Shown: positions 3,529 through 55,528 of the stretch, one piece after another
Numbering within the stretch: the first letter of the stretch is position 1
Layout: every line of letters begins with the position of its first letter
NCBI GenBank assembly: GCA_029339195.1
Contig: JAPTJF010000071.1
Location: forward strand, 62,001-126,000
Direction: 5' to 3'
From: Micractinium sp. NFX-FRZ
Taxonomy: Eukaryota; Chlorophyta; Trebouxiophyceae; Chlorellales; Chlorellaceae
Length of the DNA stretch: 64,000 bases
Translations under genes and position numbers: made by a program
The notes under the pieces: generated by a model
Database searches by the model: none
Seen by the model: only the letters and a program-made list of their open reading frames with translations
Told to the model about the DNA's origin: nothing

Positions 3529-5911
3529 TCATCCACCCAAGGCCTGGAGCCTGTCTCGCCCAGCAAGCCTGCCCGTGGCTGGCCCTCTCAGGAAGCCCAT
3601 TGCGCGGCCCCACTTCCCCCCTGGACGTGCCTTGCCGTTGAAAGTGATGACCACCCGGTTCTCGCCCTGCTTCCCCTTGACCTTGTCCACGGTGCAGTAA
3701 AAGTCGATGGCTGCATGGAGGGGTGGGACAGGGAGTGATGCAGCGTGTGGCTTGTTTGGGTGGGGGCGGAGGTACACATGCCTATGTGGCTGGGAGCGGA
3801 ATGCCGGGGCAGCCAGGTGCACGTATGAGAGAGGAAGGTGCGTGCTTACTGGATGTGGGAGCGCACGCCGACAGTCTCCACCCCCCTCACTGCCGCTCCC
3901 CACTTCCCACCACCACTCAAACCCCCCCACACCACTCCGCCCCAAGTTGCAGGCACGACCCACCCACCGCTCATGATGCCATCCCCGTGCTGCTCGTTGA
4001 TGATCGCCTTTAGCGCCTCGCCATAGTGGGACACGGCCTGCACAGATTAGACTCTCAGTTAAATGGGTGCAAGCCTGTGATTGATTGCCTTCAGGGCCTC
4101 TCCATAGTGGGACACGGCCTGCAGGGGGCAGGGGGCAGGCAGGGCTCAGAGGACGATAGGTATGTTTCTGGGGCATGGGGCGGCCAGGGAACAGATGATG
4201 ATGGGCACGCGTCCCGGTCAATGGGTGCAAGCCTTCCAGTTGGTTGCTTTCACCGCGTCGCCGTAGCGGGGCACAGCGTGCAAAGGGCAGGGCAGGGGTG
4301 GGGCAAGGGGGCGAAGATAAGGGGATTTGCAGGGATGGGCAATGGGAGGGCACCGTCCACCCCCTTCCCCAGCGTCCCCCACCTCTACCGCCTCTCGACA
4401 TGCTTCCCAGCTGCGCAGCACAAGCTGTGCTGCCCAACTGCCGGCACGCGGCACACCGCGTTTGCATCCGCCCAACTGTGTTGTGCTGCGCTGTGCTGTG
4501 CTGCGCTGCCTGTGCTGTGCCATGCTGTGCCATGCTGTGCCATGATGTGCCCCACCTCCAGCATGCGGTACACGTGTGGCTCCTGGTGCAGCTCGGGGTC
4601 AAACCCCCGCATGGGCGCCTGCTGCATCACAGCCAGGGCCTCGTCGCTGCAGGGGCAGGGCAGGGCAGGGCAAGCCAAGGCATGGGCAGGCTGTGGCGGT
4701 GGGTGCTGATGTCGCAGCGGGCAGGACAGGCTGTAGCGGTGGGTGCTGATGTTGCAGGAGGAAGGGATTTCTGGCGCCAGAGGGGCAAGCTGTGCACCGG
4801 TGCTGTGCAACGCCACGCCTCACACCCCTCCAGCGCCTGCCTGGCAGAGAGGCAGGCCCGTTGCTCACGTGAGTTGCGGCACCGCCGCCTTGAGCTTGCC
4901 CGCCGACTCAGGCTTGAGCTGCGCCTGCACAGCATGGCACAGCATGGCACAGCGTGGCACAGCGCGGAGCAGCGCAGCGTGCGGCACAGAATGTCACGCA
5001 CAGCATGTGTTGTTGGGCAGCCTCCCAGCGCCGGCTGTGTTGCGCACGGCTGGCGAGCACGCGAGGAGCGCCGCTGTGCCTGTGCCGAGCCGCGCCCGTC
5101 GGGAGCGTGCGGCACAGTGTAGCACACCCTTTCCAACGGCCAGCGCCAGTTGTTTTTGCCGGAGGTTCCCTGGCGGTTCCCCTGGCAGAGCACCCACCTG
5201 GTTGAAGAACAGCTGGGCTGTGTAGGCGTTGGTCCACCCGCAGGCGTCTGCGATCTCGTCAAAGCTCTTGCCGCTGGCGGCCTTGGCGGCCAGCAGCTGG
5301 TCCACAAATGCCACCTTGGCTGCAGGAATTTGAACATCAGGCGGAGCGGTTGTGGCCTATAGTTACTGCACTGTCGCTGGCAGCTTTGGCGGCAGCAACT
5401 GGTCAAGTAGCGCCACCTTGGCTGCAGCGAGTGTGGGATATGACAGGCAGGGAGTGGACACATGGCCGGTTTGTCAACTTTGTTGTGGTGGATGCTGGCG
5501 GCCAGCACCTGCCACAGACGCCACACTACCTGCAACGCAATTGTGGCTGTGTTATGAATGACATGTTTATTGTTTATTGGTTGCGCCATCATGGCAGGCT
5601 ATCAGGCTGGCCCACAGATGCCAACTGGGCTGGAGGACGGGGAGTAGTCGGGAGGCGAGGTGAGTTGATTGATTGCGAGACTCGGTAGGTGCTTGATGAT
5701 ATGTAGTTTCATAGGTGTTACGTCGATCCGAGATCCTGTGGAAAGGGGTAGCGGGTGGGGTGCGGTGCGGGCCGTGCCAGGGGGGATGAGCCCAGCGGCC
5801 TGCGTGCGGCGGTGGCCCCTCCGCCGAGCGCGGCCCCCCGCTCAAGGGGCGACCCCTGCGTCACTGCTTCCCTTGGACTCGCTCACCGTCTCTCGTGCGG
5901 GGTGCAAGCAT
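3529..5911 (-). CDS. CYN: Cyanate hydratase (cyanase), plant type
   Basis: Cyanase converts cyanate plus bicarbonate to ammonia and CO2. Six exons on the minus strand join in phase: 5911-5887, 5319-5198, 4924-4869, 4646-4556, 4037-3968, 3710-3529, giving 181 residues (plant cyanases are about 170). The N-terminal helical domain reads DQLLAAKAASGKSFDEIAD and then CGWTNAYTAQLF. The catalytic triad is present: Arg95 and Glu98 in VYRMLE and Ser121 in GDGIMS, close to R96/E99/S122 of the E. coli enzyme. The core ends AIDFYCTVDKVKGKQGENR then VVITFNGK, followed by about 33 extra C-terminal residues. Exon 1 is only 25 bp (MLAPRTRD); it is inferred from phase plus a GTGAGC donor. Introns contain extra copies of exons 2 and 5. 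No signal peptide is seen, so cytosol is inferred. Confidence 0.9.
4069..4282 (-). repeat. Two intronic copies of cyanase exon 5 edge
   Basis: The real exon 5 starts at 4037 with AVSHYGEALKAI. A copy starts at 4118 (81 bp upstream in the gene), keeps the CTGCAG acceptor and reads AVSHYGEALKAI again, but then loses the NEQHGDGIMS active-site part. A second copy starts at 4277, reads AVPRYGDAVKAT and has lost the acceptor AG. The two copies also share flanking sequence (aatgggtgcaagcc at about 4062 and 4220). Without the GDGIMS segment neither could replace the exon. Confidence 0.8.
4687..4757. repeat. 40-bp direct repeat in cyanase intron
   Basis: The unit with core gcggtgggtgctgatg occurs twice about 40 bp apart (near 4695 and 4735), with one or two differences. 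It lies in the intron just upstream of exon 4 (acceptor at 4647). Neighbouring intron sequence is also built of short degenerate repeats such as ctgtgccatg (4510-4550) and catggcacag (4930-4965). Confidence 0.6.
5370..5421 (-). repeat. Intronic copy of cyanase exon 2 start
   Basis: Real exon 2 begins at 5319 after CTGCAG with codons for AKVAFVDQLLAAKAAS. A diverged copy begins at 5421 after its own CTGCAG and would read AKVALLDQLLPPKLPA, 102 bp upstream in the gene. A fainter third echo (VLAAS-like) lies near 5486-5525. Confidence 0.65.
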
Positions 5912-6254
5912 CTTGGCCTGAGTAGCTGTGCGGGTTGTGCTGCGCAGGGCGCGGCGCGGGAGCCGGGCGGCTGGGCAAGGGGCGGGGTGGGTCACAGGGC
6001 TTGTGTGTGAGCTGTTTAATGGTCGGCTATCGCGATGCGCACGTTCAACTGGCGATCGCTTGCCAATTCCCTCTCTTGACACTGTCGAGGGGTGTCGAGC
6101 TGGCAGCGCAAATGAAACACCCCCTGTTCTTCCGGCGTCAACCTGGGACATCCAGCAATCCGGTGCAGCCCTGCAGCATCGTGGACGATCACTTGTAGAG
6201 GTGCCGGCTGGTGATCGCATTCCTATGTTTTGAGCAGGCCGCAGCAGCTCGAGG
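5912..6254. promoter_or_regulatory. Head-to-head intergenic region, cyanase / USP48-like
   Basis: A 343-bp gap separates the two divergent start codons and must hold both 5' UTRs and promoters. It contains the palindrome gcgatcgc near 6053. No convincing TATA box was seen. Promoter function is inferred from gene layout only. Confidence 0.5.
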
Positions 6255-7615
6255 ATGAAGCGGGCACGCGGCACCAAGGCCGCCAAGGGCAAGCCGTCCA
6301 TGGGGGAGGGCCGCGGGGAGGAAGTGGATGGCCAGGAGGCTGCCCGCCTGAAGACCATGATTGAGACGGGCACTGGCGGGCTGGGCGGCCTCTCTTACGG
6401 CGATGTGCTGCGGGTGATCAAGGCAGACAAGCCCTGTGAAGGACTGTACTCCAAGGCCTGCAAGGTGGGAGCCCTGGGCAGCGGCGGCGGGCGGTGGCTG
6501 CAGTGCGCTGCCCGTTCTGCCTCTGCCGCCACAAGCTGCCACAATTGGCTCTACCCTGCTTGGCGAATGTGCTTGCTGGTGCAGTGTGTTTGCGCTTAGC
6601 CGTCAGTCTCGCGCTGCCGCGTGCTGACAGTGGCGGCCCGCTTCCGGCCCTGCCTGCCCGTTCCCCCAACCGACCCTCCAACCACTTCCTGCCTGCACTC
6701 CTGGCTCAGCCTCAGTGCTGCCATCACTATCCAGTCTAACTAAGGTTGGGCCACCTAATTAAACTAATTGGTACTACTCGATGAAATGCAGGGCAAGAGC
6801 AGCGCCAACCCCAACACCTAATTAAACTAATTGGTACTACTCGATGAAATGCAGGGCAAGAGCAGCGCCAACCCCAACTGCATCTGCAACCTGCTGCCGG
6901 CGCCGGGCGGCTACCGCCGGCAGGGGCTGTGGGCCAAGGAGGCGGATGTGGTGGGCACGCTGGGGGCGGACCCGTCGGCCCGGGCACGCAAGGTGCGAGC
7001 GTGCTGTGCCATGCTGTGCTGGCATGTGCTGTGCTGTCTGTGCGCTGTGGAGCCGTGTGCTGGCAATCCCTTAGGTCCCTTATCTCCGCCAGCTGGAGTG
7101 CAGGCTTGGTGTGGCAGGCGCAGGGGCCCCACCTGCCTGCTGGCACACCCAGCCCTGACTCTCCCTGTCCATGCCTCGCTCTTCCTCACCAGTCTACGCT
7201 GCACTCACACAATGCCGCTGTGCCCTGCGCGCACACACTTCCGCTGTGCCCCGCTCGCAGGACCAGAGCAGGCCTGTGGGTTTGAAGAACCTAGGCAACA
7301 CATGCTACGTGAACAGCGTGCTGCAGGTGGGCTGGCTGCTGCTCAGACAGCCCCCTCTTCATCTTGCCGCCCATCCGGCTCTGCTGTTGCATTGCTGCGC
7401 CCTCGCGGCACGTGAACGGTGCTGGTCAGAGAGCCCTGCTTGACGGACATTTTTTGCCACGCTGCTCTGCTGTGTTCTCGCGTTGCTGTGCCCGGCTGCA
7501 CACTGAACGGCGTGCTGCAGGTGTGTGTAGCTGTATGCTTGGGGCAGTGGGCTGGGTTGAGGCGTAAGGGAGTAAGGCGCGAGGGTGGTGCTCGTGTGAT
7601 GACCCTCTTTGTCAG

Positions 7616-7647
<32 letters not shown>

Positions 7648-10600
7648 CCGCCTGGGGGTCCCCCCTGCCCACTGCCTGCCCTCACACGCACCCAATCATA
7701 CACCCTGCCCTCCCGCCCGCAGTGCCTGTTTTCCAACACCGCTTTCCGGCGCGCTGTGTACGCTCTGCGCCCGCCCCTGGTGGATGAACCGATCGTCAAG
7801 GAGCTGCGGTGGGTGGGCCTGGCAAGGTGGAACTCTCTGCCATACATCATTGTGCTGCCGTGGGTGGGCTGCCCAGCTGGTGGCACAATAGTGTGAGTTG
7901 TGCTGTGCAGCGGGGCATGTGGTGCAGGACAAGTTGTGACAGGAGCTGCGGTGGTTGGGTTGGCTCAGGGTAGGCCCTTTTGGCTTGCTTGGCATTACTG
8001 CTGCTACTGGGCAGCGCCAGCCGCTATCAGAGGAGTCGAGTGCGCGTGCTGGGATGCCATGCACCCAGCCACTCTCGATCCCGCCTTACCCCTCATGCTG
8101 TTGCTGCCCCTGCTGCCCCTGCTGCCCCTGCAGGCAGCTGTTCCTGTCGATGGAGTATGCTGCTGCACCCCCGCTGCACAAACACACCCCTCTGTCATGC
8201 ACCCAGCCACTCTCGATCCCGCCTAACCCTCGCTGATGCTGCTCCTGCAGGCAGCCAAGTCCCGCCTTAACCCTCCTGCTGCTGCCGCTGCTGATGCTGC
8301 CGCTGATACTGATGCTGATGCTGATGCCACTCCCGCCGCTCCTGCAGGCAGCTGTTCCTGTCTATGGAGTATGGCTGCACCGCCCCCGTGGACCCAGAGC
8401 CCCTGGCCAAGGCGCTCAACCTAGGTCAGTGGGGTGGGCAGAGGCAGTACATGCTTGTTTGGGGGCGGGCAGGGGGGTGTGCACCAAAGGTTGGGCTGTG
8501 AGTAGATACTTATTTCCTCCTTTGCAGGCCATGATGCAGCAGGCTGGGCAGGGGCTTGTAAGAGGCCTTCCTACGCCACCTTTCTCACTGCTTTCAAACT
8601 GCTTTCTTGTTCGAAAATTTCCCGCCCGCAGACCACGGTGTGCAGCAGGACGGCCAGGAGTTCATGAAGCTCTTCCTCACCCTGCTGGAGGCCAAGTTTG
8701 GGGAGCAGGCCGACCTGCAGGTGGGGGGGGGCGCTGGGGGGGCGGCGGTAGGGCAGAGGGTGGGGGGAGGTGCCCGCGTGGTGGGGTGCAATAGGGTGGC
8801 AAGGGCAGGGCAGCGCGCTGCTGGCAAAGGGGGGGGTGGCGTGCAAAGGGCAGGGCTGGAGCGCGCTGTGGCAGAGGGCGGGGTGGGGTGGGGGTTGGGT
8901 TGCCGGAGGGAGATGAGGAGGCACAGCCTCCGCCTGCCAAGCTGCGTGCACTGCGGCGATGCGCTGTGCAGCGCCGTGTTGCGCGGTGCTGCTGTGTGCA
9001 TCGTGCACTGCGCTGTGCATCGGTGCCGCGCTGACCTGCGCCGTGCTGCGCTGTGCTGTGCCCCGCCCCATCTGCCACAGGGCGTCATCCAGGCTCTGTT
9101 CCGGGGGCAGAGCGGGTACAGCACCACATGCCGCACATGCGGCCGGCAGTCAGGCAAGCCTTCCCCCACTTCCTGCCACCTGACGGCTGTTGCGTTGGAG
9201 CAGCGTGGCTGTCGGCTGCTATCCATGCTAGCGCCAGCTTCCTTGCAGCTGCAGCAGGCCTTTTGGCCCCTGGCCTGCCCCTCACGCCCACGTGCACTGC
9301 ACCGGCCAGGACCCCAGCCCCAACTTGCCCAACCCCTTCTCCTGCTCCTTCTTTCTTTACTGTTTCTTTCTTCCTGCAGAGTCCAGCTCTCGGTCCGACA
9401 ACTTTTACGAGGTGGACGTGCCTGTGAAGGGGCACAAGTCGCTGACGGGTGGGCGGGGCGGGGCAATGCTGACGTGGCATGTTGCAGGCAGCAGCCAGGG
9501 GCTTGCAGCGGCGCCTCGTCAGCCGGTGTAACGGGGGGTCTGTGCAGCAGTTGCTTGCTACAGGACGGGGGCGGCTGCTGTTCCGGCTGGCACACTCAAG
9601 CTGCGGGTCCCTCGCCACCCACCTCCTGCATCTTCCCGCCTGCCTGCCGCGTCTGCTCTCCCCTCCCTCCCTTTTCTACCCTGCAAACTGCAGACCACCG
9701 GGCCCGCCAGGAACGATCACATATGCACATTTCTCAGCAGCCCGGAAGTGCACGACCAGTGTATACATGGGTATTCGAAGTGGGTGTAAGTGTGTGTGTG
9801 TGTGTGTTTTCCTCGCCCCCCGCAGACTCCCTGGCCAGCCTGCTGTTCCCTGAGATGATGGAGGGGGACAACCAGTACCACTGCGACTTCTGCGGCCACA
9901 AGGTGAGGCCCGGCTTCTCTTTGGCACCCCTCTTCTCTGGCTTCCCTCTCCCTCCTACTCTCAGTTTCGTGCCTTCATCATGCCCAGCTGTGTTGCCCAG
10001 CAACGCGTTTTTGCCACGTGCACCTGATTTGCACTGTATTTTTGCCTTTGCTGTGCATTCAGTGCCTAGGCAGCGGTACATCCCCCGGGCTGCTCGAGCT
10101 GCAGTGAACGCAGTGACCCAAATCCTGCCCCCTCCTGGCCCTGCCTGGCTGACCAAATCCTGGCCCCGGCCCATTCTGGCCCACCCTCTCCTGGCTGGCC
10201 CGCAGGTGGACGCCACCCGCCAGCTGGAGCTGCGCAGCCTGCCGCCCATGCTGTGCTTCTCGCTGCAGCGCTTTGTCTTCGACTTTGGGGTGAGGCCAGA
10301 GGGGCGGGAGGGTGGGGCACTCTACGCAGACATGTGGTGTGTGCAGAGGTGGACGTTCTGTAGATCTCCTCGCCTTGTGACTGCGGGGGCTGCAGCCTGA
10401 GGGCCGGGGGGTGCGGTGGGTTTAATTGGGTGCATGACAGGTGTGGATGAACCAGGTTTGCATCAGGTGGGTTGGCCTGGCCGTGGGCTGGCCACCCGCC
10501 CGCCCTCTCTGCCCCGCCCACATCGCCCCACCCTAACCCTCACGCCACCCTCCACCACCCCTCCTCCTTGCTCACCTCTCTGCTTTCCTGTATCTCCACG

Positions 10601-13600
10601 CCTGCAGCGCATGGACCGCGTCAAGGTCAGCGACAAGTTTGCCTTCCCCCTCTCCCTTGACATGGCGCCGATAGTGAACCAGGTGGGGCTGAGTGTGTGG
10701 GTTGGGAAGAGGGGCCGAGGGTTCCTGTCACGTGGGGACGCGGCGCCGCCCCCACTGCCCGCTCATCTCCCTGCCTCCCGGTCCTCCTTGCCTCCCACTC
10801 TGGAGGGTTCCCCACCTGCGCACCCCCTGTGCCATCTGCCCCCTCCCCTGACATCCCCCACGTGCTCCTGTGACCGCCTCCCGCAGGCCAAGATGGAGTG
10901 AATCGAAACCTGGTGATGCTTGCAAGCCTGCCTTACCTCGTTCACAGCGCACTTCCCTCACCTCCTGCCTCTCTGCCCCTCTGCCCTCTCCAACCGTGGC
11001 CGCAGCGTGCCTCGCCATCCACCGATCACGACCTGTGTATCTCCACCCATGTCTGTCCTCGCCCCCCTCTTCCCCCACTCACATCATCCACACTTGCAGC
11101 ACGGCCGCACCGACCTCACTTACGATCTTGAGGCCATCATGGTCCACAAGGGCACCAGCGCACTGGCGGGGCACTACGGTGAGCTGGCTCGGCTGGCTGG
11201 CTGGCTGGCTGGCTGACAGATCACGCACTGCTTGGCTCGGCACGCCCTGGCCTGGCTTAACAGGCTCAACAGGCCCGTGGTGCTCCAGTGCTACGCTGCT
11301 TCACACTGGAAGCCCCCTGCCTGCCCCGCTGCTGGCATCTCACTCTGGCCACTGCGGCCCGGCCGATGCGCGCACGCTCCCTCTTTCACATGGCTCTGCA
11401 GCACCCTCACACGGTGCCCTTGTGCCACATGTTTTGTTGCTTCCCCTCCCATTCTTCTGCAGTGGCCCACATCAAGCTTGAGGGAGCGCCAGGTGGCAGC
11501 AAGGAGGGCAAGGAGGGCAAGGCGGAGGAGGGCGGCGCTGCTGCTGGCGGCAAGGAGGGCGGCGGCAAGCGGGGCGGCAGGGGCAAGAAGGCGGCTGCTG
11601 CAGCGGCGCCTGCCGCGGGTGCCGAAGCTGCAGCCGCTGCAGGCGGCGAGGCGGCGGCCGGTGGCGGCCAGGCGCAACAGCAGCAGCCTGCCTCCAGTTG
11701 GTGGCGATTTGATGACGATTCAGTGACGGAGCTGAAGGGTGGACCCACCAGCAGCACAGACCACGGAGGCGGCGCCGCCAAGGCTGCTGCTGCTGCCAGC
11801 GCTGACGCCAGCAAGGCGGCCTCCGCGGCCGGCGGCGGCGGCGGCAAGAAGGGGCGCGGCGGCGGCGGCGGCCGGGGCGGCCGCGGCGGCCGGGGCGGGC
11901 GTGGTGGGCGCGGCGGGCGGGGCGGGCGGGGGCGCGGCGGCAAGCGGGGCAAGGCGGACAGCAGCGAGGATGAGGAGGAGGAAAGCGTGGGTGCTGATGT
12001 GGATGTGGACGCTGATGATGACCTGCAAGCTGCCCTGGCTGCTTCCCTAGAGAATGGAGGTGCCACTGGTGCAGCAGCAGGTGCCGCGCCTGCCGCCGAT
12101 CAGCAGCAGCAACCGCAGCAGGGGCAGCAGGGGCAGGATGAGATTGTGAGCAGCAATGCGTACCTCCTGGTGTACCGCCAGCGGGGCGCCGCCCTGCCGC
12201 TGGTGCCGCTTGACGGCGAGCAGCAGGCGGCGCTGGCATCTGCGGCGGCAGAGTATGCGGCTGAGCAGGAGCGGGCGGTGGAGGCCTATGCCAGCACCAA
12301 GGAGCAGTTGGTGGCGCGGCAGCAGGCGCGGCAGGCGGAGGTGCGGGGCATCGTGGAGGCGGCGGTGAAGATGGAGGAAGGTGGGCAGGGCGGGGCGGAG
12401 TGGGGGAAAGCGTTTGTGTAAAGTGATTGAGGCTGCAGGTGGGGGGGCGGAGGTGCGGGGGATCACGAGAGCTGCATGCACCCAGTCCCGCCGCTTGCCC
12501 TGCTGCGGCAGGCAACCCCCACCGCCTCTGCATGCAACTTGATCAAACCGGGCCCAACAGCGGCCGCCCCCCGTCACATCTATATGCCAACAACACATGT
12601 GTTGGGGAGCTCTCCCTTGAAATGGGAATTGCAGGCGACCCGGGGCGCTTTGTGTCTGCCGAGTGGCTGGAGAAGTGGGCCAACAGCGGCGTGGAGGCTG
12701 GGCCGCTCGACCCTCTGGACAACGGCCCCCTGCTGTGCCCCCACAGCAAGCTGGACCCCGCCAAGGTGGCAGGTGCGCTGCGCACGCTGTGCTTGCATGC
12801 TGTGCTTGCCAAGCTGCCCGCACTTGCCTGTGCCCCAATGACAAGCCGGACCCTGCCTAGTTGGCAGGTGCGCTGCGCACGCTGTGCAGCGCTGCAATTG
12901 TTTGTGGTTGCCGTGCTGGCATCGCACGCTGTGTATCCGCCAAGCAGGGCCAACATTGCGCCTGGCGCATGCCGTGGGCTCGCCAATCCACACGTCTGGC
13001 GACAGGGCCGCACCATGTTTATTCCTGCCCCCGCTCCTTTCTCCCGCTTGCCCATCCCACCCACCCAACCCCCTTCGCCCCGCCTGCGCCAAACCGAAAA
13101 TTCATCCAACCCCCTCTGCAGCGGCACGGCGCATCAGCACCGCCGCCTGGGAGCAGCTGCGGGAGAGCTGCCGGGGTGGGCCCGAGCTGGGGCCAGGCGA
13201 CGCCTGCCCCGCCTGCCTGGTAGCCCTGCTGGACCACATTGCCGCCAAAGAGGACACTGAGGCAAGCTGAAAGGAGGGTGGGCTGGGCGGGCCGTGGTGC
13301 AGTGCAGGTTGACTGCTGTGCGTTGGAATGGGCTGCCGAGATAGTGTAGCGAGATAGAGGCGAGGGTGGATTTGATGGGCAGAAAAGGGGGGCAGTTGGG
13401 GCGGGGGTCCGAGTGTAGCAGGACATGGTCAGCAGAAGAAGAGGCGAGCAGGGGAGTGCCACCCCTGCTGCTTCTGCGTCTGCTGACCATGTCCTGCTAC
13501 ACTCGGACCCCCGCCTTACCCGCACACCTCTTCCGCCTGTCCGCATGGCTCTCTTTCCTCCTCCACCCGCCCTTCCCCACCCGAGACTGTCTCCCCATTT

Positions 13601-16600
13601 TCCTGGCACCCCTGCGTTTCCCGACCCTCGAGGCAGACAGAGCATCATGCTTGCTTTCAGGAGCTTGCACCCGTGCCTGCCCTGCCCTGCTGGGCCCCCC
13701 GAACCAGCACCGGCACCCGCACCCTGCTGTACTGCCCTTCTGCAGGAGCAGTACGCCCTCTTCCAGGAGGTGGTGGACTCCCGCACCGACACCGCAGCCG
13801 CGCCCTGTACTGCCCCCTATTGCCGCCAAGCAGGAGCAGTACGCCCGCCTCCAGGAGGTGGCCCGCGTGCTGGAGGCCTGTACCGGTACTTACCGCCTCG
13901 CCCTGTACTGCCCCCTGCAGGAGCAGTACGCCCGCTTCCAGGAGGTGGCCCGCGTGCTGGATGAGGGGGAGGGGGAGATATCGGGGCTGGCCCGGGACTT
14001 TTTGGTCAGCCAGGCCTGGATCAAGTGAGTGCGGGGCTTGTTGGTTTGGGGCATGCAGGGTGGGCAGGGTGGGCAGGATGGTCAGGTCAAGCGAGGGCTG
14101 AGCATTTCTTTCTTTGTGTCATGCGTGTGTGTGTTTATTTGGGGCATGCAGGACGGGCGTGTGTCTGCGTGCAGGCGGTCAGCTGATGGGGCGGGACAAT
14201 GGATCGCTTCGTTGTGGGTTGTGAAGCCTGCTGTGCTTTGTCACGTCCTCCAGGGAGTCGTGGAGGACACCCTGCATCCTGATGCCTGCTCAAACAGCTG
14301 ACCAGCTGACGCCTGCCTACTCCCCAGCCCACACATGCCCCCGCCTCCCCGCCCACCCGCTCCTCGCAGGGGTGCTCTGAGGCAGCGCGCCCGACAGGCT
14401 GGCCCAGCAAATCCACCACCTTGTTTGCCCCTGCCTTCACCGCTCATATCTCCCAACCATGCACCCCTGCCTGCGTGTGAATCGCCCCGCAGGGACTTCC
14501 TGAAGAAGCGCGCCCCCGGCACCCTGCCCAGCAAGTCCCCCACCGCCGCCATCACCTGCCCCTGCGGCGCCCTGGCCCCCGAGAGTGCCAAGGAGGCCAA
14601 GCGGGCCGCCATCCCAGCAGACTTTTGGGGATTCCTGCAACGCGCCTGGAAGGCGCAGTGTGCGGAGAAGGCGCTGAAGGAGAGGATGCGGCAGCAGCGC
14701 AAGCAGGGCGGGGGAGGGGCGGCGGGCGCCAGCGGCGTGTGGGACGTGCAGGAGGGCGGGCAGCAGCAGCAGCAAGGTGGGTGGGGCTCCAGGAGGGAGG
14801 GAGGAGGGTTGTGGGAGGTGACCGGGCAGGCTTCAGGCAGGTGTGGGCTTGAAGACCCCTCAACATGCGCTGCGCCATGCCTTGATGCTCTGTGCTGGAC
14901 CCTCCTGTGTGCTGCCGTGTCATGCACTTGCCGCTCGCGCCTGTGTTGTGATCTCTGCGTGTTTTTCGCTTCTTCCTGCCTGCCTGCCTGCCTGCCCATC
15001 ACCCCGCGAGACCCAATGCCCTCCACCTCACCACCGCCCCTCCTGCTCCGTGCAGGCGCTTCAGATGAGGCAGAGGTGATCTGCCTCGACTCAGACGGCA
15101 CCGAGCAGCAGGGTCGAGGGGCGGCAGGGCGGCGGCCGCGCCGTGCGCGCGCCGGCAAGGGCTCCAGCGAGCCACCGTCAGAAGCCCCCCCTGCCGCCGC
15201 AGCCACACAGCAGCAGGAGCGGGAGGGTGAGGAGGGCGACGATGATGATGTGGTGGAGGTGAAGGCAGAGGGGGCAGCTGGAGTGAAGGCAGAGGAGGAT
15301 TCTCCAGACGTCGTTCTTCTAGAGGCGGGAGGAGAGGAGGCTGCCGGCTGTGCGGCGGCAGCGGCAGCAGATGAGCTCCGGGAGTTCCCAGTGGGCTGCC
15401 CGGAGTGCCCCACATGTGCTGGCGACCTGAAAGAGGCCAGCAAGGCGCTCAAGGTGAGCGCTGCAGCTCTGCGTTGCGCATGACGGGGGCTGGTGGGGTT
15501 GGGCAGGGGCTGCTCTTGGGTTGCTAGGGCCTGCTGGGCCTGGTGGGGGCCCTCCCTGTGGTCCCTGCAGGTGCAGCCCGAGTGCTGGGTGGCCCGTTGG
15601 TGGGGGACAGGCGAAGTGCTGGGCTGAACAACCCAACCTGGCAATCTAGCACCAGAGCCCCCGCAGCACCGCCTGCCAGCGCTGCCTGCGGGCCCGCTGA
15701 ACCGCGCCCCCGCCTCAGCCGCTCACATTCTGCACCGCCCATTTGCCACCCCGACCGCCCTTGTGCAGGGCCTGCAAGGCCGGCTGCAAGAGGAGCGGCA
15801 GGACCTGCAGCACCTGCTGCAGCCGCCCCACCTGCGGCCCCGCACGCTGCAGCCGGGCGCCTCCTACCGCCTGGTCCCCGCCGCTTTCATGGATGCTTGG
15901 CGGGGCTACATGGGGCAGGCGGGCAAGCGCACGCTGGCCAAGGGCGCCACGGCAGCTGGGGTGAGGCCAGCTTGAGGGTGTTGCCGGCATGCTGGGCCTG
16001 GGGGGCAGCACCGCCTGCCTGCCATGCCGGCCGTCCTTGACAGGGGCCAGCAGGACAAGGGCAGCGGCTGGGTGCTGGGTGCCGGCAGCATGTCCTAGCA
16101 CAGTCAGAGGGCCTCAACCCGCTCCGCCTCCTGCCCCACGTCGACCCCTCCCGACCCCCGCTCTCTGGCCTGCCCCCCTGGCCTCCCGCAGATTGTGAAG
16201 CCTCCCAGCCTGATGGAGGCGCTGGAGGGAGTGCTGTGCGAGTGCCACCGCAGCTGCAGCAGCGAGGACGCAACTGCCGGCGTGGTCAGTGAGGGAGAGG
16301 ACGCAGCGCACGGCAGCGAGGCGGAGGGCGGCAGCGGCAGTGGCAGCCGGCTCATGCTCGCCTACCCCCCGCCTGCGGTGGTCAACAAGCGTGGCCGCTG
16401 GGTGGTGGAGGACGGCGGCGGCGGCGGCATTGGCGGTGCGGCAGCGACGGCAGCAGCAGCAGGTGGCACGGAGGCCGACGGCATTGGCTATTATGAGCTG
16501 TTGGAAGAGCGGGACTGGCTGGTGCTGACGGCGTACTATGGAGAGGGCTGCGAGGAGGATGGTGGCGAGGGAGGTCGGCGCAAGCGGGCGCGGCGTGCAC

Positions 16601-35185: not shown

Positions 35186-38100
35186 TCAGTACCTGCGGCC
35201 GTAGTCGCGGTCCCGCCTGTCGTCATAGTACCGGTCGCCGCCGCCGCCACCAGAGTAGCCGCCGCGGTCGCCCCTGCAGAGCGATGCGGCATTTGGAGAT
35301 GACGGCGGGTGTGGGTGGGGAGGACACATGCGCCAGATGCAAACGGGGAAGCATGCAAGCAGGCGGACGGGCGACGGGTCGCAGAGAGAAGAGTGTCAAG
35401 TCATCCCCTTCTGAGGGGGAGCTCCATTCTCCGCCTACCTGTCGTCCCGGTAGCCGCCGCCGCCGCCGTAGCCGCCACCACCGCCTCCGTAGCCGCCGCC
35501 GCCGTAGCCACCGCCGCCGTACCCGCCGCCACCGCGGGGCGGGCCACCGTAGCGGTCGCCGCCGCCGTAGCCACCGCCGCCATAGCCGCCGCGATCATGG
35601 CCTGCAAGAAGTCGGGCGATGCGAGCGCAAAGGTAAGGGTCAGGGCAGGGGTGGAAGGGCGGATATGGCTGCTGTCGGCATCGCTGCACAGCTAGAGTGG
35701 GCAGAAAGTTGAGAGAGGGAATCTGGGCCGATGCATCGGGGCATAGAGAGACACGGACATACACATGCAATGCATCGCAGGCACAGGCAGCGCACGGCCT
35801 ATCAGGCAGCAACAGCAAAGGAGCCTGCAGCGCGCACGCACCGCCGCCACCGCCGCCGTAGCCGCCGCCACCATAGCCGCCGCCGCCACCGCCGCGGGGC
35901 GCACCACCAAAGCGGTCCTCCTCGAGCACCTTCTTGATGATGCCCATCTGTTGCGGAAAAGTGGGGAGGGGAGGCAGGCGTCGGGTAAGAGGGTTTGCGG
36001 GCGCAAACCTCCCCTGCAGTGGACGTGTGCAGGTGCGATTGCGTGCGCCGCCACGCAACCGGGCCTCCCCCCCACGCGTCTAAAGCGGACCCTACCGCAA
36101 CCTCCCAACGAGCCAGGCCCGCGCTTACCCTGCGTGCCCACACGTACGCCCCGCGCTTGCCCTGAACCCCCGGTGGATATCAACAAGCAAGGGCACCCCG
36201 TGCAACTCCCGCCCCACGCCCCACGCCTGCTCGCCAAGCAGCCCAACCCTGCTGCCTCTCTTCCCCGCCTGCCCGCCTGCTCACCATGAAGCCCTGGCAG
36301 ATACCAACACCCTCCCACCGTGCAGCCCTGCCCGGCTGCCTCTCTTTGCCTCCCGGCCGCCCGCCTGCTCACCATGAAGCCTTGGCGGTTGCGCACGTGG
36401 TCGTCCAGCGAGCGGCAGTAGCGCGTCACCGCCTCCTCCGCCAGGTGGGCGGGCATGTCGGCCAGGGCGCGCACCATGCGCTGGTCCACCTCGTCGCGAG
36501 TGATCTTGCGCTGCAATGCCGGGGAGAAGGGGGGAGGGGGGAAAGAGGCTGAGAGGAGGTGGGAGGCGCACCGCGGGGCAGAAATGAAGCAGGCTGGGGT
36601 GCAGGGGCGTGCACGCTAGCGTGCTGCCCGATGCCTGTGGCAGCTTGCATCCACACAGTTCCCCCCTCAGCCCACACCACCCACACACGCTACTCTACTT
36701 AGCCCACCCTCCTCTCCATACAAGGCAGGGCCCTTAGAAGGACACCAGTTTCTCACGTCGTCGATGGCGTCCTCGATGCGGTGGCGCACCGAGCGCGGCA
36801 GCATGTCGACCTTGCCGGCGCCGCGGTCAGGTCCATCCAGGCGCACGCGCTTGATGATGCCGGCAATGAAGCCGTTAGGGTTGCGGATGCGCCTGCACAA
36901 GGGGGAGGCAGCAACAGCAGATGAGTCAACAGAGGTGCCCAGGTGCCAGTGACTTGCACAAGTGCCGATAAACCTGCTTGATAACACCCGAGGTTAAGCC
37001 CTTGGACGGACGGATGCGACTGCAGGTGTGGCAAAACCAGAGTGTCTCTAGTGGAGCTGCAGGAGCACAGAAGACAGCTTCCAATTGCTGCCGCCTGACG
37101 GCTAATAAAGGGGGTGTGGGTGGGTGGGGTGCCCCTCGTTCTCCTCTTCGCGCCTGCCCCCTGCCCTCATCCCTCATACCCCACCCAGCCCAGCCCAGCC
37201 CAGCCCAGCCCAGCCCACTTCAGCCCAGCCCAGCCCAACCCAGCCCATCCCAGCACTCACTCCAAGTTGGCCTCGGTCAGGCGGTCCACCACACACGTCG
37301 CCTCCTCGTTGCTCAGCTCTGAAGGCAGGCGGGCGAGACGGGCAGGCAGGCAGGCAGGCAAGTGAGGCAAGCGGACAGGCACGTGAGACAACAGGCAGAC
37401 AGGCTGATGGATGAGGCAGCACCCAATAAACTGTGCCCAGGGCTGCCAGCAGCACAGCAGCTCTCCTCCGAGCCCCTCCTGCCCTCTGGACAGCAGCGCA
37501 GCACCTTCTTCGATGTCTCGCAACAGTGCATGCCCCAGCCAGGCACCTGCCAGCCCCATCCGCTTCCCCGCCACGAAGCCCGTCCACTGTTCCACCTGCC
37601 CGTCGCAAACCAAGCCACACTCACTCTCAATGTCGTCCAGCAGCACCTGGTCAATCTCGGTCTTGCGCAGGAGCCCCTTGTCAAACAGGCGGTCCAGCTT
37701 GGGCTGCAGCAGGGATGCAGTTTGGTGCATGTGTTAGAGAGAGCAGGGTTTGGGAACCCTTGTCAAAGGGGAAGGCAAGGGGAAGGCTGGGCAGAACATA
37801 TGCATTAGGCATGTTCCCCTGGTCCACCCGAGGGGAACTGAGCACAAAGGGCAGGCAGAGGGGGTGCTGGGAACGGACGCGACGGCTGAGCGGCAGGCAA
37901 AGTAAGACAGGCGACTGAGCAAACATGGGCAACACTGGGCCCAGCCTCCCGCTGCCGCGCTGCAGACAGCTCACCCGCCACTCGGCGGCACCGCCGGCGC
38001 GGCCGCCAGAGCGGCTGCGTGAGCGGCGCGGGGAGCGGCTGCGCGAGTCGCGGCGCGGCGAGCGGCTGTCCTTGGAGCCTGCGGGCAGAAGGGTGGAGGC

Positions 38101-44947: not shown

Positions 44948-46122
44948 TCAAATGAGGAATGAAGGAGAGGTAGCGGTGGAAGGGGACAGGGGCGATGCTG
45001 CCTCCATGTGCTGCAGCTGCTGCTGCCGCTGCCCCAGCTGCTGCTGCTCTCCAGGGGCTAGCTGCACTGCACCGCTCGCAGGCGCTGCACCCGCTGGCGG
45101 GCCGGGCGTCACGCTACCGGCCTGCGATGTTGCCGTGGCCTGCTGCCCCCGCACTGCAGTCACAGGATCTTGTGCGACCTGCTGGTCCAGAAGCAGCATT
45201 GCAGCCGCCATCTGGAAGGGCAGCTGCAGGCCTGGCAGGGCGCCAGGCCGCAGCGGCAGCGGCGGCGGCGGCGGCATGTGCTGCTGGGCTGCTGGGGCCT
45301 GCAGCACCATTGGCATGGAGGCGGCCAATGATGCCACAGCCGCCGCTGCTGCACGGGCTGCTTGCGAAGCCTCCGACGGCTGGCCCGATGCCACATCTGC
45401 CAGCACCTGCTGCCTGGCCGTCAGAGGCTTGCTGGGCGGCTGCTGAGCTGGCGGCGCTGCTGCCTGCACGCCGGGCGGCTGCTGAGCTGGCAAAGATGCG
45501 TGCATGCTGGGCTGCTGCTGAGCTGTCAGAGCTGCTGCCTGCACGCTGGGCGGCTGCTGAGCTGGCAGCGCTGCCTGCACCCTGGGCTGCTGCAGGCCTG
45601 GCAGCGGTGCTGCCTGCACGGTGGCCTGCTGCTGAGCTAACTGCGCAGCCGCCTGCCCGTTGTCCGGCTGCGGGCCTGGCGTGGCAGCTGCCTTCACGCT
45701 GGGCAGCTGCTGAGCTGGCTGTGCTGCCTGCGTGGCAGCTGCCTGCACGCTGGGCTGCTGCGGGCCTTGGCCCGCCAGTGTCTGCACCCGAGAAGGCAGC
45801 GCCGCTGCTCCTGCGAACAGGTGCTGCTGTGGGACCAAGGGAGGCTGCAGGCAGACCTGCAGAGGAGCCTTCAGCTGTGCCTGCAGCTGTGGCGGCCGTG
45901 GTTGCAGCTGCAGCTGTGCCACCGGCTGCTGCGGCGCTGAAGGTTTTGGTGCCATTGCTCCCAGTGGCAGGGCCAATGGCTGCGGCGCCACAGCGACAGC
46001 TGGCAGCGATGCAGCCTGCAGCTGAGCTGGCAGTGCTCCGAGAGGCTGCGCTGGAGGCTGCTGCTGCACGCTGCCCAGCGCTTGCGCCTCGATCTGCTGC
46101 GGGGCTGCTTGCAGAGGCTGTG

Positions 46123-46169
<47 letters not shown>

Positions 46170-50185: not shown

Positions 50186-50581
50186 GGCTCCAGGATGGCG
50201 CCCAAGGCGGGAGCGGGGCGCCTCCAGGCGAGTGACTACCAAGTTACCAAACGGTGCGGGTTCAGCCCTCGTGTCTTGACGCAGTGCAATGAGTAGTTGC
50301 TATGTCCAGGGTGATGGATCGCAAACAGCCTGCCGATCTACTAAGGCTGGGGGGTTGTCCTGCCGTACGTCAGGAATTTGGTTGGGCCCATCGCGGCCTC
50401 GCAACCCCTTGGTACCATCGCCAATAACCGTTAAACGCACCGGGTGCCATCTAAGCACCAGGAGGCCCTGCAGCCCACCCGCAAGTTGTTCCTCCCTGCC
50501 TTCCTGCCCCCCAGCAAGCTGGCGCGTTTCTCGCGCAGTGTCACTTTGTGACAGTATAGCATAGCTCCAGTAAGGGTGCAG
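50186..50581. promoter_or_regulatory. Head-to-head region, B3 factor / nucleotide-sugar transporter
   Basis: The 396 bp between the B3 ATG and the first resolved transporter exon must contain both promoters and the unresolved first transporter exon. The exon must end in phase 1 (one base of an Ala codon). An ATG at 50289 followed by seven codons and a weak donor gtgatg would fit, but support is poor. Confidence 0.35.
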
Positions 50582-53500
50582 CCGCCAAAACGCCGACCTC
50601 CAGCCCCCGCAAGCCGGTGCAGCAATGGATTGAGGCGGCCTCCGGCGGGCACGCCAACGGCACAAACGGGGCGCGCGGCATGCTGGGAGAGCAGGATGGC
50701 CGGCACTATGCCGGCGGCGGCGGCGGCGGCAGCACCGGCGGCAGCAACGGCGACCTGCCGCCGCTGAGGCTGCTCCCCGGGCGCCGCACCTCGGCAGGCA
50801 CCTTTTATGGCGCCAATGGCGGCACCAGCACCAATGGCGGCGTCATGCTGCAGGTGTTGGAGGCGGCGCAGTATGCCAGCGACCGCGGCGGCGTGCTGGT
50901 CAGCGGCGCCCACACCCCGATGCCTGCAGCTGGGCACCACTCTGCCCTGGCGCAGCAGTTTGACAAGTACGAGGCGCAGTACGAGCAGCAGCAACGGTTC
51001 GTCGTCGACCCGGAAGGGGGCCGGGGCCGGGGCCGCGCCGGCGACAGCGGGTCGGCCAAAGCGGCGGCCGCGGCTGGCGGCGCCGTTGCCCAGCCGTCGA
51101 CGCCGGCGACGCTGCGCCGCAACTCGCGGCTCGCGCTGCTCTCCATGCTGCTGCTGGTGTTTCAGGGCACGGCGCTTTCCATCATGCTGCGCTACTCGCG
51201 GGCACGCGCGGGGCAGCCATACCTGGCATCTGTGTCGGGTGAGCCTAAGGGCATGGGGGGGCAAGTGGCTACAGTAGCGGGCCGCCAGAGGGGCCACAGT
51301 GCAGGCCCACCCCTTGCATGCACCCTGCGGCCCGGCATTCGTGGGCAAACCCTTCCCCTCCCTGCCCCTATCTCTCCACCCTCGCCGCCCCTGCCTCTGC
51401 CCCACACGGTCGGCCTGCCCCCGCCAGCATAGCACACCCACGGTCACCGCTCATTCCTCGCTCCTCCTGTGCCCCTGGCCCTGCCCTCCACAAAACACCC
51501 ATTCTGACAGCGAAGATTGCATTGACATGCCAACTATACCTCCCGCCCCCCTGCTCCCTGTGGTGCAGTGATCTTCACGGAGGTCATCAAGCTCGTCATC
51601 TGCCTGTTCATGCAGTACCGTGCGGTGGTCGCTGAGGTGGCAGCCGCCAGCAGGGCCAGCGGCGGCAGCCAGCAGCGCTCGCTGGCGCTGGCGCGGGAGC
51701 TGCGCAGGCAGGCCAAGGACATTGCCTCCAAAAGCCTGCCCATGCTGCTGCCTGCGGCAATGTTTGTGATGCAGCAGGTGGGGCGGGGGGGCTTTGTGGC
51801 TGTGTGTGTGGATGTAGATGGTGCAAGTGCTGTGCTGGGGTGGGGTGGGAGCGGGCACCGGAGGCTTGATGCAGCGGGCGGGCCGGCGGGTGGGACCGTG
51901 CGGGCGGTTGGGTTGGTGCCTGGGCTGGGGTGGCCGGGTGCGGGCGTGCCTGTGAGATGCAATGCAGATTCCGAAGTGTTCAGGGGCGCATGTGGGCTGG
52001 CGCGGGGGTCGGTGCCATGTCTGGGTGCCGCGGCCTTCCCCTCTTGCTGGCAGGTCCTGCTGCTCATCGCTGCTACTCATCTGGATGTGGTTGCCTCTCT
52101 GCTCTGGCTCCCATTCCTGACTGCCACCTGTCCAACCCTCCCTCCCTCCCTCTTTCCCTCCCTCTTTCCTTGCAGGTGGTGCTGAACACTGCCGCCACTG
52201 CGCGCCGCGCCTGGGTGCGGTCGCCGCCTTCAAAAACCTGATCCCGTTGTTATGCGTCTCTCGCTGCTCCTGTTCTCTCTGTGTGCAGGTGCTGCTGATC
52301 ATTGCTGCCACCCACCTGGATGCCGTCGCCTTCCAAATCTTTAGCCAGTCATTCAAGCTCGTCCCCACCGCCCTCTTTGCCTACTGGCTGCTGGGCCAGA
52401 TGCTGGAGCCGGTGCAGGTGGGGGCGGGGGCGGGGAGCGGTGGGGCGGGGCAGGGGTTACTGCGCAGGTGGGGGCGGCGGAAGGGACCGATGGGGTGGGG
52501 CAGGGGTACTGCGCAAGTGGGGGCGGGGGCGGGGAGCGGTGGGGCGGGGCAGACGTCTGCACCGTCACTCGGTAAGCTTACATCAGCGCACAGAACTACA
52601 AACAGGACTGCCGACGCAGGTGGGGGCGGCAGGTGCCGGCGGTGGGCGGTTGGTGGGGGATGGCGGGCGTAAGGCGGGCCCTCCCTGCCCGCCGCCACTC
52701 CTGCACGTATGGCAACCATAGGCTGCCCTCTGCCCGCTGCCCGCTGCCCACTGCTCTCTCCCATCCACCCTCTGCCCTGCAGTGGGCCTCTATCCCTGTG
52801 CTGGCTGTGGGCGTGGTGCTGGTGACGGTGAACAACGGGCCGGCGGTGGGCAGCCACCGGTCGGCGGCGGCGGTGGCGGCCATGAGCCGCAGCCATGGGC
52901 TGGATTATGTGGCGGGCATGGTGGCCTGCTCCATCAGCGGCCTGAGCTCCGCCTACGCAGGTTGGTGCAGGGGCAGGTTGGGGCGGGCTGGATGGGTGCG
53001 AGGGTGGCAGGCGGGAGACCCAGTTGTGATGTCCATGCCATGCCACGCCCTGGCTCGGCGGGCGGCGCAGAATGATACCTCTTGTGGGCGCCCTTGCCCT
53101 GCCGTGGTGCGCAGGCAGGGAGCGCGGATCCTGGTATGCATGCCACAGCAGCCCCCGCAGGCGTGTGCTTTGAGAGCCATGTCAACGAAACAACATAACC
53201 AGCATCCCACTACCTCCCCCTGTGCAGGTGTATACTTTGAAAAGTACGTCAAGGGGAAGCACGCCGCCTCGCTGTGGGTGCGAAACATACAGCTGGGGCT
53301 GTACGGCGTGCCGCTCAGGTGGGTTGGGCGGGGCGGGGCGGGCACCAAGGGGGTGCGGGTGCCTTTAGCCTTGGCGTGCGGGGAAATGAGAACGCACCGG
53401 CTGCTGCCCCGCACGCTCGCTGCCTCACACGCGGTGCTGCTCCTGCTGGCCCCTGCTGTGGTCTGCCGGGCCTCCGGTACCACGCCCGCTGTGTGGCGTC

Positions 53501-55528
53501 AGACCGAGTGTTCGGTGGGGTTTGCTCACCCCCACAGCCTGCCGCTGTTTGCCCACCCCCACACCCCGCCCGCTGTTTGCCCACATACGCAGCCTGCCTG
53601 TTCTCCGCCCCCTCGCGGCCTGCCTGCTCCGCGCTCCCTGGCAGCCTGCCCCGCTGTCCACTCCCTCACATCCCGCCCCCCTCGGCCTGCGCCCCCTGCT
53701 GCGCCCTGCTGCAGCACGGCATACGCGCTGCTCAAGGACGGCTGGCAGATACACACGGGCGGGGTGATGCAGGGCTTTGATTCCGCCACGTGGATTGTCA
53801 TCGCCCTGCAGGCAAGGGGCAGAGGCCGCCCGCCTGCAATGTCACCCAGCCCGCGCGCCAGCCTGCCCGCCAGCCAGCCTGCCCTCTTGCAGCCGGCTGG
53901 CCACGCTTGCCACCTGCCCTCCGGGAGTTCAGGAGATACTGCCTGCCTTGTCCCACTCACCTTCTCCCATTCTCCCCGCGCCACTCCCCTCGCCGCCCGC
54001 CCCTGCTCCCCCTCGCTCCTCCTCCCGACCCAGCGGGGTGTTTGGCGGCCTGGTGACGGGCATGGTGGTCAACTGCTGCAAAACCCTTGTGAAAAATGTG
54101 CTGCCCCCCCCACTGTCCTGGCAGGTGTTTGGCGGCCTGGTGACGGGCATGGTGGTCAAGTACTGCGACAACATCCTGAAAAACTTTGCGCTGGCCATCT
54201 CTGTCATCCTCACAGTGCTGGTGGCCATTCCCCTGTTTGGACAGGTGGGACCAGTAGGGGAGAGGGGAGAGTTGTGGGGGGGCGGGGCGGGGAGCGGGGC
54301 GGGGAGAGATGGCTACGGGTGTCATCCTCACAGTGCCGGTCGCCATACCCCTGTTTGGGCAGGTGGGCCGGGTGCGGTGGGGGGCAGAGGAACCCGGGGG
54401 GAGAGTGGGGCGGGGAGCGGGGCGGGGAGAGGTCGCTGCCTGACGCGTTTTTACGTGCTGGTGGCCATCCCGCTGGTTTGGGCAGGTGGTGGCGTTGTGC
54501 AGCGCGCAGGTTGTTTCTGGGGGGCAGGCGGGAGGGGCAGGGGCGTGCCAAGGCCGTGACATTTCCTCACGGCGTCTTGCTGGCACCATCTCAGCTTCGT
54601 TGCGCCCACCAATGCTGCCCCCGCCCCGCCCGCCCGGCTCCGCCCTGCCCTGCCCCATCATCCTGATTTGAGCTGGGGCAGGGCGTGGCGCTGCGTGCCG
54701 CCTCAACACCATTCACTGCATGCCCCTCCCCTTACCCCCATCCCGCTGCCTCGCCTCCTGACCTGGCCTCTCACCCCTTGCCCGCCCAATCGCCCCGCCT
54801 GCCCCTGCCTGCAGTGGCCCAGCCCAATCTTCCTGGCTGGGGTGGGCCTGGTGCTGCTGTCGGTCTTCATGTATGGGCGGGCCTTGGACGCGCGCAAGGT
54901 GCAGCTGCTGTGGCAGCGGGGGCGCAAGGTGAGGCGGGGGAGGAGGGGGAAGATGGGGGAGCGGGTGTGGCGGCGGGAGGGCGGGCGGCATGCACGTGGT
55001 GGGGGAGGAGGAGACCAGCAGGGGCGGGGCAGGGACGGGGAAGGTAGCAGGTGAGGCGGCACTGGGTGTGGGGCAAATTCTTGATTGCAGCCAAACCGGC
55101 GTGCAGCGGAGCTCCCCAGAAAGCTTGCCCTGCTGGTGAGCCTGCCTCCCTGCACCGCTCAGCTTGGGGCACTGACGATGTCCTTATGTCCTTGCTCTGC
55201 CTCGCGGCCCTTCCCTGATCCCCGTGCCTGTCCCGCCCCCTCCCGCCCGCCCAACCGCAGCGCTGGCAAGATGTTGGCGGCAGCCGCGGGCGCGGGTTGG
55301 TGCTGCTCCTGCTGCTGGCCGGCACTGGCGCAGTCGGCGTGCTGCTGCTGGCTGGCGGCATGCCTGGCGGCAAGCAGCTGACGCGCAACGGCGGCAGCAG
55401 CACCCGTGGTGGCCGGTTGACTGCCGCTGACATAGCTGGCATTGGGCGTGAGGGAGCCGCAGGCACCGTGCTGTCGAGAGGCAGAGGCGGCGGTGGCGGC
55501 ACAGGGCGGCGCAAAGCAGGCGGCGGGG

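Follow-up and report, generated by a model that had tools for sequence, protein, structure and literature searches.

Short tandem duplications recur across splice junctions in a Micractinium genome and probably lengthen its introns

Introduction

To our knowledge, the growth of introns without transposons is poorly known. Minisatellites offer a general likeness, in that they consist of head-to-tail copies and expand once a repeat exists. Internal gene duplication together with intron creation was reportedly described by Gao and Lynch in 2009, the duplicated parts being whole introns and stretches of coding sequence. For the RdRp gene of potato, one tandem duplication across an intron-exon border has been described, in which a cryptic donor gave rise to a new intron (PMC4974935). 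In the Rogers model, an exonic segment with AGGT is duplicated in tandem and the new intron equals the duplicated unit, which is a known mechanism of intron gain (PMC3443670). Introners (PMC9860276) are dispersed families that change intron content on a large scale and are present in green algae.

Here, we analyze a window of 64,000 nts (contig JAPTJF010000071.1) from Micractinium sp. NFX-FRZ, a relative of Chlorella and Micractinium among the green algae, along with other places of its genome. A first-pass annotation of this window had proposed that exon edges are recurrently duplicated into introns, at a density for which we recognised no description in an alga among openly licensed papers.

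Materials and Methods

We sampled the 66-Mb genome at 13 places, the window included, for a total of 304 kb. Exons were taken from a self-trained gene finder, which miscalled some copies as mini-exons and fused some neighbouring genes. In the window, 17 edges (16 to cover the annotated cases and one extra) were compared with a null of 3000 random intron stretches of equal length; the SR and transporter exon numbers of the first-pass annotation may be off by one in our mapping. In the sample, each exon-only edge was compared with its own adjacent intron, and length-matched introns of other genes, drawn in five rounds, served as control. Exons shorter than 25 nt, low-complexity or >30% masked queries, and introns longer than 2000 bases were left out beforehand, leaving 1118 edges. 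About 3 of the 64 resulting events are expected by chance, and the count misses some true events (the PAP gene has zero there and two in the window edge test).

Frame preference was counted for offsets of 60-180 only (58 of the 64 events), and the intron part of the unit for the same offsets with similarity starting ≤10 nt from the junction (47 of 64). Splice dinucleotides were counted where similarity starts ≤2 nt from the junction (40 of 64). Five short events were left out of the second-copy test, which covered 59 edges, and the GC3 test was confined to genes with at least four introns (37 genes). An over-strict complexity filter, which gave 12 events only (codon-position mismatches of 19/15/21), was superseded by the 64-event set. 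The genome search with positions 6700-6900 skipped simple repeats and common words and concerned this one locus.

Results

Exon-edge copies in the window

Thirteen of the 17 window edges have an intronic copy that beats all 3000 null stretches (0/3000 below). On the minus strand, the head of cyanase exon 5 with its acceptor (exon-attached copy, 3998..4042) is identical at 41 of 45 positions to a first intronic copy at 4078..4123 (0/3000), and all four differences within 37 aligned exon bases (4/4) fall at third codon positions; a second, more diverged copy at 4241..4282 (identity 73-74%) has lost the acceptor AG. The edge of cyanase exon 2 (5272-5325) is copied at 5375..5427 (45/53; 0/3000).

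The USP48-like gene, on the plus strand, contains a clean, perfect tandem duplication at 6752..6878, where the exon 2 acceptor lies in two identical, AT-rich 63-bp units (40 nt of intron and 23 nt of exon; 100% over 64; better than all 3000 null stretches). Its exon 5 acceptor edge (8335-8380) is copied at 8121..8168 (43/46; 0/3000), and its exon 14 donor edge (12733-12785) at 12828..12880 (45/53; 0/3000), the latter copy having an internal stop codon. The exon 16 acceptor is present in three tandem copies, the last being the exon itself, at 13742..13961 (spacing 88 and 87; better than all 3000 null stretches). There, the gene finder called mini-exons at 13746-13769 and 13834-13857; in protein P0121 of Micractinium conductrix, the segment occurs a single time.

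An acceptor edge absent from the first-pass annotation is copied at 23221..23270 on the minus strand (38/50; 0/3000), in a gene which we take to be acetyltransferase-like. In the PAP gene (plus strand), the edges of exon 2 (28207-28260) and of the exon 7 acceptor (30230-30263) are copied at 28093..28146 (47/54; 0/3000) and 30139..30172 (30/34; 0/3000), respectively. The SR/RGG gene (minus strand) has a weak match at 36280..36326 to the edge 36368-36416 (34/47; 0/3000, score 17.8 vs a null maximum of 15.3). In the transporter gene (plus strand), the acceptor edge of exon 52289-52417 is copied at 52050..52096 (38/47; 0/3000), where the copy reads WQVLLLIAATHLDVVA and the real edge QVLLIIAATHLDAVA. 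Both ends of transporter exon 7 are copied, the acceptor edge (54124-54183) at 54037..54096 (52/60; 0/3000) and the donor edge (54202-54249) at 54320..54367 (44/48; 0/3000); the protein of exon 54125-54244 is 100% identical to M. tetrahymenae P0151.

Four of the 17 edges did not beat the null: the USP48-like exon 3 donor (14/3000), the donor of transporter exon 52289-52417 in G-rich DNA (209/3000), and two further SR edges (673/3000 and 2986/3000). The number of affected genes, previously given as five, is at least six, with SR/RGG among them by its weak match.

Frequency of edge copies across the genome sample

Over the 13 places (304 kb), 64/1118 exon-only edges matched their own adjacent intron, compared with a mean of 3.4/1118 over the control rounds; inverted copies were found at 2/1118 edges. 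Outside the window, the counts were 54/919 and 3.0/919. An edge copy is present in 61 of the 609 sampled introns, about one in ten, and every place has at least one match (two places have only one). Together with the window edges, these counts confirm the copies as real and genome-wide. In a comparison with mid-exon controls, as the first-pass annotation had proposed, with equal 45-nt queries at score ≥16, own introns were matched by 47/820 edges, other introns by 0/820 edges and own introns by 0/134 mid-exon pieces. When the search range was widened, 1/105 mid-exon windows vs 45/733 edges matched at score ≥16; at score ≥14, mid-exon windows gave 6/105 and their control 1.

Ungapped self-pairs (score ≥22) formed 111 clusters at offsets of 20-499 in the 304 kb, and the same search at distant offsets gave 2 clusters at 1500-1979 and 3 at 3000-3479. 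Offsets of 81-133 account for 44 of the 60 edge clusters, and clusters with offsets ≤60 (n=31) include 22 purely noncoding and 2 edge clusters. The exon copies are <90% identical in 48/64 pairs, and the wide identity range and more than one copy per edge are as annotated. Exon-edge copying into introns is far above chance, spread in age and not peculiar to the window.

The duplicated unit and intron length

A typical event is a tandem duplication of ~105 bp, of which ~40 nt come from the exon edge and 60-75 nt from the intron, and it affects donors and acceptors alike. The unit spans the edge of the exon together with the splice site and the adjoining intron, is repeated head to tail, and leaves the unattached copy inside the intron. 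Offsets have a median of 108.5 (IQR 97.5-124.75; 58 events), and the intron part (offset minus exon part) ranges from 23 to 136 nt (47/64 events). A second copy was found at 18/59 edges vs 1/59 in the null, with the nearer copy being the better one in 14/18 by score (p 0.03) and 12/18 by identity (p 0.24), a weak sign of serial growth.

Introns with an event have a median length of 334 nt, compared with 238 nt for those without, a gap of about one unit that agrees with the earlier suggestion of intron growth by boundary duplication. The share of introns with events is 2/31 under 100 nt and 12/37 at 400-499 nt; the length difference alone is no proof of growth, because longer introns give copies more room.

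We favor the explanation, with a probability of roughly 0.72, that short tandem duplications, mostly of 80-130 bp, recur across splice junctions and lengthen the intron in a nearly neutral way. These duplications may originate from replication slippage, nick repair or unequal exchange. Splicing would stay with the exon-attached junction, as the reading frame and the proteins of relatives suggest; the mRNA would then be unchanged, so that the extra unit would be a nearly neutral intron extension. Once a first repeat is present, further ones would arise easily.

Are splice borders preferred?

A narrower form of this explanation does without any border preference: duplication would strike everywhere alike, with the conserved exon keeping edge events recognisable and exonic ones being purged. 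We rate it at somewhat less than even odds. Duplications deep in introns do exist (14/358 mid-intron pieces with 45-nt queries; 143/3751 deep windows), which means that edges are not the only sites of the process, and 20/35 intron-only pairs lie >10 nt from a junction. The remaining 15/35 (43%) abut one within 10 nt, compared with 12% by random placement, which proves nothing alone because junction-straddling units are expected to abut. In the stricter intron-only comparison the excess is 1.4-1.9 fold and not significant (p 0.06-0.38 over six simulated settings), and we do not make a firm claim of splice-border bias on this account. The event rate also climbs with GC3 (15/320, 18/167 and 26/106 introns), as expected if conserved genes hold the signal longer.

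On the other side, exon-based detection at offsets of 60-180 gave 50/65 edge clusters, whereas the simulation predicts 50% (p 1.6e-5), and outside the window 39/50 (p 9e-5). An age-matched simulation predicted 51-90 deep pairs per 64 edges, but only 20 were observed, and the edge excess is 2.5-5 fold in one simulated comparison. Abutting pairs, too, are fewer than this simulation predicts (20-41 predicted, 15 observed), which makes its counts of deep pairs probably too high.

A stronger proposal, which we consider unlikely, makes junctions hot spots for ~105-bp tandem duplication, with breakpoints mostly 20-60 nt into the exon and 40-100 nt into the intron. Introns would then grow outward in serial steps from exon borders, and much intron sequence would consist of decayed edge copies. 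This would imply a mutational process linked to the chromatin of splice junctions, to R-loops or to transcription.

Coding and splice-site tests of the copies

The copies might instead be functional, as parts of alternative or mutually exclusive exons or as regulatory decoy splice sites, which appears quite improbable. The near copy of cyanase exon 5 differs from the exon at four third positions only, the 16 events with identity ≥0.9 have 7/4/17 mismatches by codon position, and AG or GT is retained in many copies. The hint of coding constraint in cyanase is gone over all 64 events, in which mismatches are 110/120/130 of 795/800/794 sites at positions 1/2/3, and mutually exclusive exons under coding constraint are thus not what was found. 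The third-position bias of the 16 closest events fits a conserved exon with a young neutral copy, and also some constraint.

Offsets modulo 3 are distributed 20/20/18 (58 events), without frame preference, and each checked edge occurs once in relatives' proteins. Given these results and the flat codon-position counts, a role as a source of alternative exons, one of the first-pass suggestions, is unsupported. Another, toxic mis-splicing, is likewise unsupported, since copied splice dinucleotides are neither purged nor retained beyond the neutral rate (AG 12/15 and GT 17/25; neutral expectations 0.77 and 0.74). Taken together, the copies decay like neutral DNA, without coding constraint.

Intron gain, introners and assembly

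Intron gain of the AGGT type is very improbable here. The copies contain intron sequence and the splice site, with 23-136 intron nts in 47/64 events and 40 in the unit at 6752, so that the unit is not wholly exonic, and event introns (median 334) are far longer than the offset (median 108.5) to which a gained intron should be equal. Homologous flanks were not seen either: exon tail plus intron head resembles intron tail plus exon head at a mean of 16.98/61 positions vs 16.97 in the control, with a maximum of 30 (control 31) and no intron at ≥36/61.

An introner or mobile element was considered for the AT-rich unit at 6752 and rejected, as the genome search with 6700-6900 matched its own place only. 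Edges match other sampled introns at background level only, with no sign of dispersed similar introns. An assembly artefact, suggested by the one 100% identical pair (6752-6878), is hardly credible, as 48/64 pairs are <90% identical and matches occur in all 13 places.

Discussion

In these introns, the conserved exon edge acts as a ruler by which old duplications can still be recognised and dated. If the rate of 61/609 introns in 304 kb holds for the 66 Mb, the genome would contain many thousands of events of differing ages. These would allow direct measurement of the mutation spectrum, of splice-site choice and of how far duplicated splice sites are tolerated. For gene annotation, the copies are a warning, as they are readily miscalled as false mini-exons, as happened with the gene finder used here.

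Among known systems, the potato RdRp gene is the closest case (PMC4974935), since there also an intron tail and exon head were doubled head to tail across the border. It differs in being a single event that gave a new intron, while here the duplications involve 61/609 sampled introns, occur at both donors and acceptors, and apparently result in a longer intron. AGGT-type gain, including Hellsten et al. 2011 as cited in PMC4974935, shares a short intragenic tandem duplication tolerated via splicing; here, part of the unit is intronic, and there is no sign of a new intron as long as the unit. Introners (PMC9860276) share the large-scale change of introns, but the copies found here are local rather than dispersed.

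Like minisatellites, these copies run head to tail and probably expand once a repeat exists, although they are few, ~105 bp in size and placed across a splice junction. The duplications reported by Gao and Lynch are said to be internal and tandem within genes, as they are here, with the difference that in Micractinium sp. NFX-FRZ partial exon edges turn intronic.

Frequency of exon-edge copies across the sampled genome

We analyzed a sample of the 66.07-Mb genome (838 contigs) that consists of the window, which spans 62001-126000 of contig C71, and 12 further places of 20 kb, giving 304 kb in 13 places. Exons and introns were defined by a two-strand HMM gene finder trained on all 304 kb, which yielded 609 introns (median 244) and 656 exons (median 112), with 35% of the sequence coding. 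The predicted proteins look sensible, and the known faults of the models are fused adjacent genes and some intronic copies called as mini-exons (13746-13769, 13834-13857, 28101-28121 and 8134-8154 in the window). Real annotations of such genomes may likewise carry intronic copies as false mini-exons.

Each exon edge was compared with its own adjacent intron and with length-matched introns of other genes. The queries, at most 75 nt long, were edges made up of exon sequence alone, which keeps the intronic side of the splice consensus out of the comparison. At a score of at least 15, 64 of the 1118 edges (27/567 acceptors and 37/551 donors) matched their own intron, compared with a mean of 3.4/1118 in control introns over five rounds and 8/1118 in one separate round. 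At a score of at least 18, 45 edges matched their own intron versus 0.2 in control introns. Outside the window, 54/919 edges matched at a score of at least 15 versus 3.0 in the control, and all 13 places contained at least one matching edge, with just one each in the sampled places L003L004 and L009L010. Inverted copies were found for 2/1118 edges. With 45-nt queries and a score of at least 16, 47/820 edges matched their own intron and 0/820 other introns, while the values were 0/134 for mid-exon pieces and 14/358 for mid-intron pieces against their own intron. Mid-exon windows searched over a wider range gave 1/105 at a score of at least 16 and 6/105 at a score of at least 14 (control 1). The first-pass annotation had claimed recurrent duplication of exon edges into the introns of window genes, and the comparison with these controls bears it out over the 304 kb.

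Copies within the window

Ungapped self-comparison of the window at a score of at least 20 revealed 12 local pairs at offsets of 40-399, and none at offsets of 3000-3359 or 6000-6359. Among 17 window edges tested, 16 of them selected to represent the cases of the first-pass annotation, 13 have an adjacent-intron copy that beats all 3000 random intron stretches, and four do not. The cleanest case, at 6752-6878, is a 63-bp unit duplicated perfectly in tandem, with 40 intron nt and 23 exon nt; when 6700-6900 was searched against the genome, no match besides its own place was returned. The intron part of this unit (6752-6791) is A+T-rich within a region of roughly 63% GC. Other repeats in the window include a large G-rich array with many periods (60857-62182; 299 overlapping self-matches), located in what is predicted to be an intron of the protease-like gene, and a tandem array of ~39 bp, a multiple of three, at 45431-45787, where coding sequence of the B3-like gene is predicted.

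The USP and transporter names of window genes are supported by protein matches, the transporter being nearest to Micractinium tetrahymenae (82%), followed by M. conductrix (76%) and Chlorella vulgaris (76%). The names cyanase, PAP and SR/RGG were taken over from the earlier reading, and those of the presumed acetyltransferase-like gene and the other genes are our assumptions.

Anatomy of the duplicated unit

For 58 events with an offset of 60-180, the median offset was 108.5 (IQR 97.5-124.75). The two parts of the unit were measured in the 47 events with similarity beginning no more than 10 nt away from the junction. The exon part had a median of 44 for acceptors and 37.5 for donors and exceeded 60 nt in three, while the intron part had a median of 60 for acceptors and 74 for donors and fell below 38 nt in three. 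If the intron part has a lower bound, this would agree, for acceptors, with an exon-attached site that requires a branch point and tract of its own. Gapped alignments displayed for 16 events show the intron part duplicated too in several of them; about half overlap themselves and are hence uninformative.

At 18/59 edges the intron contains a second copy, versus 1/59 in the null. The nearer of the two copies was the better one by score in 14/18 cases (p 0.03) and by identity in 12/18 (p 0.24), both of which may be biased by hit selection. In introns of at least 150 nt in the 304 kb, G-rich sequence follows the donor and C-rich sequence precedes the acceptor. Intron head and tail could thus pair, and a hairpin is a possible, candidate route to duplication.

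Possible preference for splice borders

Local duplication is not exclusive to exon edges. In introns of at least 240 nt, a partner 60-180 bp away was found for 143/3751 deep windows versus 39/547 exon-edge windows, and for 76/3120 deep windows in introns of this size without an edge event. When ungapped self-pairs at distances of 60-180 were grouped into clusters, 50 were edge and 15 noncoding (39 and 11 outside the window); a simulation of uniform duplication with constrained exons and neutral introns predicted 50% edge (p 1.6e-5 for all, 9e-5 outside the window). Identity-matched simulations predicted 51-90 deep pairs per 64 edges, and flat ages 63-107, versus 20 observed. For intron-only pairs abutting a junction, 20-41 were predicted by identity-matched simulations and 34-51 by flat ages versus 15 observed; therefore, the simulations over-predict intron pairs in general. 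The gap rate measured in the copies, 0.078 per mismatch, is below the 0.12-0.30 that they assumed. Considering intron-only pairs alone, 15/35 abut a junction versus 28-35% predicted, a 1.4-1.9-fold excess (p 0.06-0.38). In view of these results, a bias of duplication toward splice borders is possible: the exon-based figures favour it and the intron-based figures do not prove it.

Genes that carry events

Events are clustered by gene (chi-square 77 versus a permutation mean of 45, p 0.008), and their rate climbs with GC3 (15/320, 18/167 and 26/106 introns; Spearman 0.55, p 5e-4, for 37 genes with at least four introns). Events of identity at least 0.9 follow the same trend in small counts (5/330, 5/173 and 6/106 introns). 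The trend fits better preservation in conserved genes, and it also fits higher mutation in highly expressed genes. Versus a mean of 10%, events occur in 8/20 introns of an NADH dehydrogenase-like gene (~10706-18669 of the sampled place L007L008) and in 8/24 introns of a gene that we take to be K+/H+ antiporter-like (~1041-11692 of the sampled place L019L020). The former name is backed by protein matches, the top two at 91% and 75% and the best named one from Chlorella variabilis (67%).

Fate of the copies

Introns with events have a median of 334 versus 238 in the others, a difference of about one unit, with the caveat that longer introns give a copy more room. Mismatches between exon and copy are spread over codon positions 1, 2 and 3 as 110/795, 120/800 and 130/794 sites, and as 7, 4 and 17 in the 16 events with identity of at least 0.9; distances modulo 3 count 20, 20 and 18. 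AG is retained in 12/15 copied acceptors and GT in 17/25 copied donors; both shares lie close to the squared identity (0.77 and 0.74, respectively).

In relatives' proteins, each checked edge is present once. Within the NADH dehydrogenase gene, two of them, P0001 and P0002, match the exon as well as the copy, and the P0001 gene is probably intron-free, since its 652 aa are encoded on contigs no longer than 2908 bases. Eight of nine copy-like matches of these two proteins, placed by eye, lie at exon ends, and one starts five residues inside. The same pattern was seen in the window with P0121 (M. conductrix), P0151 (M. tetrahymenae) and P0153.

Comparison with known systems

Tandem genomic duplication of exonic AGGT segments is an accepted route to intron gain (PMC3443670). 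Its marks are absent here, and of the intron growth or gain suggested earlier, an apparent lengthening is supported while gain of this type is not. In potato RdRp, a single duplication crossing an intron-exon border gave rise to a new intron (PMC4974935). The algal events belong to this type of border-crossing mutation. In contrast to that one event, they occur at high density, at donors and acceptors alike, with longer introns as the apparent outcome.
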